31,669 nucleotides of DNA from a virus, in the IMG/VR virus record IMGVR_UViG_3300048822_000033, positions 1-31,669 of that record; one strand, 5' to 3'. This document shows, one piece after another, positions 30,306-30,466 of this stretch. The position numbers were made by a program, and so were the translations under genes. Position 1 is the first letter of the stretch. Each line of letters starts with the position of its first letter. Below the pieces are notes generated by a model that saw only the letters and a program-made list of their open reading frames with translations, did not search any database and was not told the origin of the DNA.

Positions 30306-30420
30306 AATCCTTTTGTAAAAAGTGGCGGCCCAGATGTTGCCAGGACCCTTGCGTTGGCAACCCACGGATTTGTGAGAAAGCGCAAGAGCTGGTGACCAGT
30401 TATTCCCCGCCAGGGGTCAC
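30306..30420 (-). ncRNA. GC-rich structured RNA downstream of the hammerhead, possible pseudoknot
   Basis: Between the hammerhead and the HTH gene, positions 30321-30430 contain 67 G/C of 110, far above the flanks. On the minus-strand RNA GUGACC (30420-30415) pairs with GGUCAC (30397-30392). CUUGCG (30386-30381) pairs with CGCAAG (30353-30348), and GUUGCCA (30361-30355) with UGGCAAC (30342-30336); these last two interleave, as in a pseudoknot or two rival folds. A weak UGGC/GCCA stem is followed by CUUUUU near 30317. No known RNA class was recognised. The same stretch can also be read as protein in frame with the HTH ORF. Confidence 0.5.
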
Positions 30421-30421
30421 T

Positions 30422-30466
30422 CCACGGGACCTTTCTGTTTCGTCCATTAGGACTCATCAGCCGTGG
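30422..30466 (-). ncRNA. Type I hammerhead self-cleaving ribozyme
   Basis: Read on the minus strand: stem I 5' arm CCACGG (30466-30461), core CUGAUGA (30460-30454), stem II GUCC-UAAU-GGAC (30453-30442), GAAA (30441-30438), a very short stem III (AC/GU, possibly an A-G pair, loop GAAA), cleavage triplet GUC and stem I 3' arm CCGUGG (30427-30422). Every position of the hammerhead core is present, stem I is perfect over 6 bp, and both ends open at stem I, so it is type I. Cleavage is predicted between 30428 and 30427. The 2-bp stem III may make the monomer weak and favour a double hammerhead. Confidence 0.9.

Follow-up and report, generated by a model that had tools for sequence, protein, structure and literature searches.

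What lies behind the hammerhead ribozyme in a 31.7-kb virus record whose head genes match SU10-type phages? The window, the whole stretch of 31,669 nucleotides that was analysed, carries on its minus strand, to which all features described for it belong, a type I hammerhead at 30466-30422. All core bases are present, and the match to RF00163 (30.4 bits, E 1.9e-5) lies slightly under the Rfam gathering score of 34. The ribozyme consists of stem I (30466-30461/30427-30422), CUGAUGA (30460-30454), stem II (30453-30442), GAAAC (30441-30437) and a tiny stem III, with the cut predicted between 30428 and 30427. Its blocks follow the order C-G-S of type I and not the S-G-C of type SGC; the exact hammerhead pattern with the window's stem I gave no further match. 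The stop codon UAA of an upstream ORF (30776-30447, 109 codons), which encodes a Gly/Ser/Tyr-rich repeat protein with no Pfam family above the cut-off, lies inside the stem II loop; between 30476 and 30776 this ORF is built of near-tandem 6-base units. An ORF of 62-63 codons (30298-30107, likely start 30298), HTH-like by eye, begins about 120 bases past the hammerhead; it had no Pfam match and no relative in viral contigs. Searches with the window end against cultured phages at the nucleotide level and with the major capsid by tblastn yielded no match.

An earlier note had proposed that the G+C-rich region behind the cut is a new structured, pseudoknotted RNA outside known classes. Its base count was exact, with 67 G or C among the 110 bases at 30321-30430 (60.9%, there rounded to 61%) compared to 33-36% in the flanking sequence towards lower coordinates. 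The two helices it described as interleaved, CUUGCG/CGCAAG (30386-30381/30353-30348) and GUUGCCA/UGGCAAC (30361-30355/30342-30336), are perfect, its third is GUGACC/GGUCAC (30420-30415/30397-30392), and a fourth that it had missed is UGGCGG/CCGCCA (30412-30407/30328-30323). Taken by itself, this single sequence exceeds chance only weakly: its four perfect helices, each of at least 6 bp, were matched in 28 of 500 dinucleotide shuffles, and the pseudoknot-free minimum free energy has a z of -0.39. Such unremarkable single-sequence folding, together with an ORF that spans the RNA, would be compatible with chance G+C-rich or coding DNA that has no RNA function, and homologues were needed to decide the matter.

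A hammerhead pattern scan of IMG/VR led to phages with a related RNA right behind the hammerhead. A motif for the first half of this RNA (half A) retrieved 37 viral stretches, and a motif for the second half (half B), blind to A, retrieved 82, some of them by chance; one pattern match, in Marinoscillum (L153), was rejected as a chance hit. From IMG/VR and cultured phages, 65 distinct copies were parsed (57 representatives), 52 of which are permuted and 13 not. The covariance model R1, whose training set did not include the window, scored it at 38.7 bits (E=2e-7) through the A half (E 1.8e-7). The B half gave 14.4 bits with an E of 0.19 and still aligned with every helix kept. The window copy is a divergent member of the family.

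The structured RNA was accepted because its helices covary, both in 54 cores rotated to a common order and in 32 permuted homologues in natural order. The rotated cores have 96.4% of their cells paired and double changes in 25 of 27 pairs; these double changes number 419 versus 103 in shuffles, and the covariation score is 0.774 versus 0.177 in shuffled alignments and at most 0.127 in slid controls. The 32 permuted copies in natural order, with eight helices including the hammerhead stems, are paired in 98.8% of cells and hold 316 double changes versus 79 when shuffled. Covariation and permutation together leave chance G+C-rich or coding DNA with practically no probability. The earlier note had named purely coding conservation as what would overturn its proposal, and this did not materialize: homologues vary by compensatory pair changes, A and B exchange places between copies, synonymous conservation of a frame was not found, and the 121-codon frame across the RNA is merely an upstream extension of the HTH-like ORF.

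The fold, two interlocked hairpins A and B, is thereby established by covariation. The RNA measures about 100 bases and is doubly pseudoknotted. Its core comprises two half-modules, the loop of each hairpin being base-paired to the 3' tail of its counterpart. Half A has the consensus CGCGGAG-[H1]-loop-GGGAAUAAC-[H1']-CAG-tail and half B the consensus CGUGGG-[H3]-CA-loop-GCAG-[H3']-CAUCU-tail. PK1 (6 bp) joins the A loop to the B tail, H2 (7-8 bp) joins the B loop to the A tail, and the A loop also contacts CUGG of B through 2 bp. Each helix is supported individually in the 54 cores: H1 (98.8% of cells paired, double changes in 5/6 pairs), PK1 (97.8%, 6/6), H2 (92.8%, 8/8) and H3 (100%, 4/5). 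The covarying strands follow in the order P0, H3, H2', H3', PK1', stem I, H1, PK1, H1', H2, P0'. Many unpaired core bases are invariant or strongly conserved in the aligned cores; as these alignments were built around the search motif, conservation of the motif letters in A and B is partly due to selection, and that of the pairing is not.

All these elements can be placed in the window. Half A (30427-30381), homologous to the A half of the 65 collected copies, reads CCGUGGAGU...GGGGAAUAACU...CAG plus tail. Its hairpin H1 (30420-30392) is the GUGACC/GGUCAC helix closing a loop at 30414-30398, and within that loop lies the 5' strand of PK1, UGGCGG (30412-30407). The tail of A supplies the H2 5' strand CUCUUGCG (30388-30381). 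Half B (30366-30323), which aligned with 53 relatives, runs CGUGGG, H3, CA, H2 3' strand, H3', CAUCU and PK1 3' strand. Its hairpin H3 (30360-30337) pairs UUGC (30360-30357) with GCAA (30340-30337), is extended by the invariant pair G30361-C30336, and holds in its loop the H2 3' strand CGCAAGGG (30353-30346). The PK1 3' strand CCGCCA (30328-30323) ends about 9 bases ahead of a Shine-Dalgarno-like AAAAGGA (30314-30308). Between A and B, a vestigial P0 connector (30376-30361, CUCAC...GUGGG), read from the sequence, overlaps the invariant CGUGGG of B.

The relation of this core to the hammerhead is less simple than the window suggests. Layout 1, hammerhead-A-B, is that of the window and of enterobacterial phages, and layout 2, B-hammerhead-A, found in most copies, is its circular permutation. 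The hammerhead site is constant, at the junction of B's end and A's start on the tip of stem I. At least ten copies (for example, L124, L157, L159, L161, L163, L174, L179, L184, L191 and L196) have no hammerhead but a small hairpin or short linker at its site, so the shared payload is the core and not the ribozyme, on which the core does not depend. The proposal that the hammerhead makes the 5' end of the RNA therefore stands in part: GUC cleavage in the window layout would set that end at 30427, but a hammerhead ahead of the RNA is too narrow as a general rule because it is mostly embedded between B and A and is replaced in these copies. The core bases of the ribozyme are invariant in the 32 permuted homologues of alignment A4, which were chosen for a J region of 38-58 nt, and its stems covary. 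Two details of individual ribozymes were noted. The stem II loop UAACG is common to about half of the permuted copies and may be a docking contact with the core; in L126 (around 9500), the hammerhead stems are kept and core bases are changed (GUAAAGAG, GCAA), and this ribozyme is presumably dead.

The earlier note had further suggested a switch in which a second CCGUGG competes with stem I. This idea was not borne out, as positions 30366-30361 read CGUGGG, with which B invariably begins in 54 of 54 aligned cores, and stem I is itself a separate conserved helix with 96% of cells paired in the 32 permuted copies. The broader reading, that the RNA regulates the downstream gene in cis, as a riboswitch or attenuator whose output is the hammerhead, draws on the strongly conserved unpaired bases and on the closeness of PK1 to the Shine-Dalgarno-like sequence in the window. 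We consider it improbable, given that its proposed competitor is the conserved start of B, that the permuted layouts place a different half beside the gene, that the element occurs inside tRNA arrays and that downstream genes agree neither in class (no PHROG family common to more than 3 of 63) nor in distance (about 10 to over 1,000 nt to the next ORF). For the window copy alone, a local effect on the HTH-like ORF 25 bases past the RNA is possible.

The distribution of the RNA was then considered. All 35 whole records hold a single copy per phage record, which also fits a cis element needed once. The RNA was detected in 15 of 5,426 E. coli genomes, lying between Q and holin in the prophage examined, and in one of 369 gammaproteobacterial genomes, namely the search centre itself, which fits a phage-borne element. 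In Enterobacter phage SDFMU_EhYP it sits between a short ORF after the capsid gene and the gene for tail tubular protein A, and in cultured Pectobacterium and Dickeya phages it adjoins tRNA-Met; capsid, lysis and terminase regions also carry it. Large plasmids of Acinetobacter, which PLSDB types as mobilizable, have the RNA as well (L218 2692-2969). Apart from tRNAs, neighbours are diverse and no gene recurs among them. Of 56 copies, 14 have a tRNA within 200 nt, which is true of 6.9% of positions drawn at random from the same loci. The 27 tRNAs so located all share the strand of the RNA, and the RNA often starts 1-3 nt past a tRNA 3' end.

Such spacing raises the alternative that the core is a second nucleolytic ribozyme, one that frees the tRNA 3' end as proposed for theta ribozymes, and the many conserved unpaired bases and the natural permutation, known in ribozymes, would suit it. 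No Rfam ribozyme model fits, though, the arrangement of P0/H3/H1 with PK1/H2 differs in strand order from the HDV topology, and in mRNA contexts the presumed cleavage point falls within a long continuous helix, which makes a second ribozyme very improbable. An HDV-like or theta identity was likewise rejected, since the order P1, P2, P3, P3', P1', P4, P4', P2' was not found and there is no Rfam HDV match.

Comparison of closely related phages points to an accessory RNA that moves between unrelated phages. In E. coli prophages with flanks 97-99% identical, Q-RNA-holin alternates with Q-tRNA-Asn-tRNA-Thr-holin, and another prophage holds a different insert in the same slot. The T7-like Enterobacter phages phiKDA1 and Entb_48 have a different short insert within the same outer stem, SDFMU_Pec has none, and Pectobacterium phage Ymer keeps the tRNA and lacks the RNA. 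The outer stem CAACAGGUAAGAGCAYUG/CAGUGCUCUUUCCGUUG is common to lambdoid E. coli prophages and a T7-like Enterobacter phage, suggesting that the cassette has moved horizontally. Loci L224, L225, L226 and L227, at Q/holin or capsid/tail tube positions, thus show a late-operon slot that tRNAs, the RNA or other short inserts in the same outer stem can fill.

We favour the view that this is a processed, accessory and probably trans-acting phage RNA. Copies are mostly borne by long outer stems, mostly of 15-25 bp, and most permuted relatives have a long P0 helix, whose duplex energy in permuted copies outside tRNA arrays has a median of -27 kcal/mol. Hammerhead cleavage would create the 5' end of A, and RNase III may cut the outer stems, which are of the approximately 20-bp type in many copies. 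For copies in tRNA arrays, RNases P and Z/E would act on the ends of the adjacent tRNAs. The RNA would thus be excised as a discrete stable molecule and act in trans, as the product of an accessory gene that phages carry in the manner of a tRNA gene. In permuted copies, PK1, H2 and stem I would keep the molecule together despite the nick at the hammerhead. The window copy lacks both a long P0 and a significant outer stem, which would leave only the hammerhead to mature it; as it has no tRNA nearby either, it may instead act locally on the HTH-like ORF.

The main rival, to which we assign a clearly smaller but appreciable probability, is a cis-acting processing clamp on late mRNA. Here the hammerhead would cut a polycistronic late transcript, and the double pseudoknot and outer stem would enclose both newly made ends, 3' and 5', giving each mRNA segment protection and a half-life of its own. 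Consistent with a clamp, both cut ends lie inside PK1/stem I, the capsid/tail tube and Q/holin contexts are late-operon boundaries, and an intact hammerhead core is kept in 33 of 42 copies in mRNA contexts away from tRNAs, compared to 3 of 8 beside tRNAs, a small sample. A clamp does not account for the core being kept in hammerhead-less copies, for the same gene boundary occurring without the element in close relatives, for its replacement by tRNA genes, or for the many invariant unpaired bases, which exceed what a clamp would be expected to need.

As to what the processed accessory RNA might do, a counter-defence or translation-related decoy is a doubtful suggestion. A compact cloverleaf-like RNA in tRNA slots, with the 2',3'-cyclic-phosphate/5'-OH nick of the hammerhead in one arm, would mimic the product of a host anticodon nuclease acting on a tRNA; neither ARAGORN nor RF00005 scored the RNA as a tRNA cloverleaf. 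The hints are few. In L193 (618-1772), a phage rtcB RNA ligase gene lies 21 nt downstream of a permuted copy with an intact hammerhead, and enzymes of the RtcB class join the kind of ends made by a hammerhead; the link, seen in 3 of 50 RNA-bearing records versus 1 of 50 records picked by the hammerhead pattern, is not significant. In L174, where the copy has no hammerhead, a Ro60/TROVE-like protein (PHROG 850, RNA-binding; Ro60-like by eye) is encoded at 3-1184, about 1 kb upstream of the RNA.

The claim of a new class held up. No Rfam 15 family exceeded its gathering threshold for the RNA behind the hammerhead in the window, and loci L019, L124, L129, L134, L136, L137, L140 and L147 returned only hammerhead, tRNA and sub-threshold noise. 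Sub-threshold YrlA matches in L140 and L021 overlap tRNA genes and were not counted as evidence. Judged by sequence comparison, this is a structured and pseudoknotted phage RNA family absent from Rfam 15. It is undescribed in the open-access literature examined (Perreault 2011, PMC3088659; Eckert 2023, PMC10085705; Kienbeck 2024, PMC10879173), and a prior description may exist elsewhere.

Among known systems, type I hammerheads of RF00163, including those of phages and prophages (PMC3088659), share the catalytic core, block order and intergenic phage location, whereas here the ribozyme adjoins, or lies within, a larger pseudoknotted RNA, and this RNA is also found without it. Hammerhead variants of PaP3 and Bcep176 were tested by Perreault et al. 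in 2011 (PMC3088659), and a search of these two phages with R1 found no such core. The theta (HDV-like) ribozymes of gut phages likewise lie beside phage tRNA genes, a few nt from the tRNA 3' end (PMC10879173), but they differ in topology and sequence, the present RNA has its own hammerhead or none, and the tRNA-adjacent location applies to only the above minority of copies. Type-SGC and non-circular hammerhead permutations and HRIMA motifs (PMC10085705) are also permuted hammerhead-linked RNAs with several pseudoknots; there, mainly in metatranscriptomes, the hammerhead itself is permuted, whereas here the attached RNA is permuted and the hammerhead is of ordinary type I. Phage tRNA genes such as those between Q and holin in E. 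coli prophages share slots, late transcription and accessory presence with this RNA, which differs in its pseudoknotted core and in having no CCA end. Circularly permuted (two-piece) tmRNA (RF04321) is another RNA with a permuted two-piece gene order, as here; neither a tag reading frame nor an alanine tRNA-like domain was recognized in the present RNA, and an RF04321 match in L134 (26.3 bits, gathering score 47) was discarded because it lies upstream of the hammerhead, off the RNA.

If these readings are right, a widespread class of phage non-coding RNA has been missed by Rfam 15, in which a natural self-cleaving ribozyme is built into a larger structured RNA and a complex pseudoknotted RNA is naturally circularly permuted, its pairing partners holding the cut molecule together. 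It would give a concrete context to some of the many phage hammerheads that lack an explained purpose, and the exchange with tRNA genes in the same slots would allow the role of accessory phage RNAs to be tested, with E. coli prophages and cultured Enterobacter and Pectobacterium phages as material.

Other hammerhead-linked RNAs were observed alongside. In a third, rare family (L092, L097 and L223), strands pair by eye in a hammerhead-A-P0-B topology with different letters (GGUUGUG, GGAUACGAAG); a search for further copies of family F2 gave three loci only. A second hammerhead-linked structured RNA, with stem I AGACAG, occurs in L053 (3864-4062), L015, L021, L067, L082 and L099. Its A-like hairpin has the loop UUGUGGU, whose pairing partner ACCACA lies far off, immediately ahead of a gene or tRNA, and in L015 and L021 this RNA sits in large tRNA arrays.
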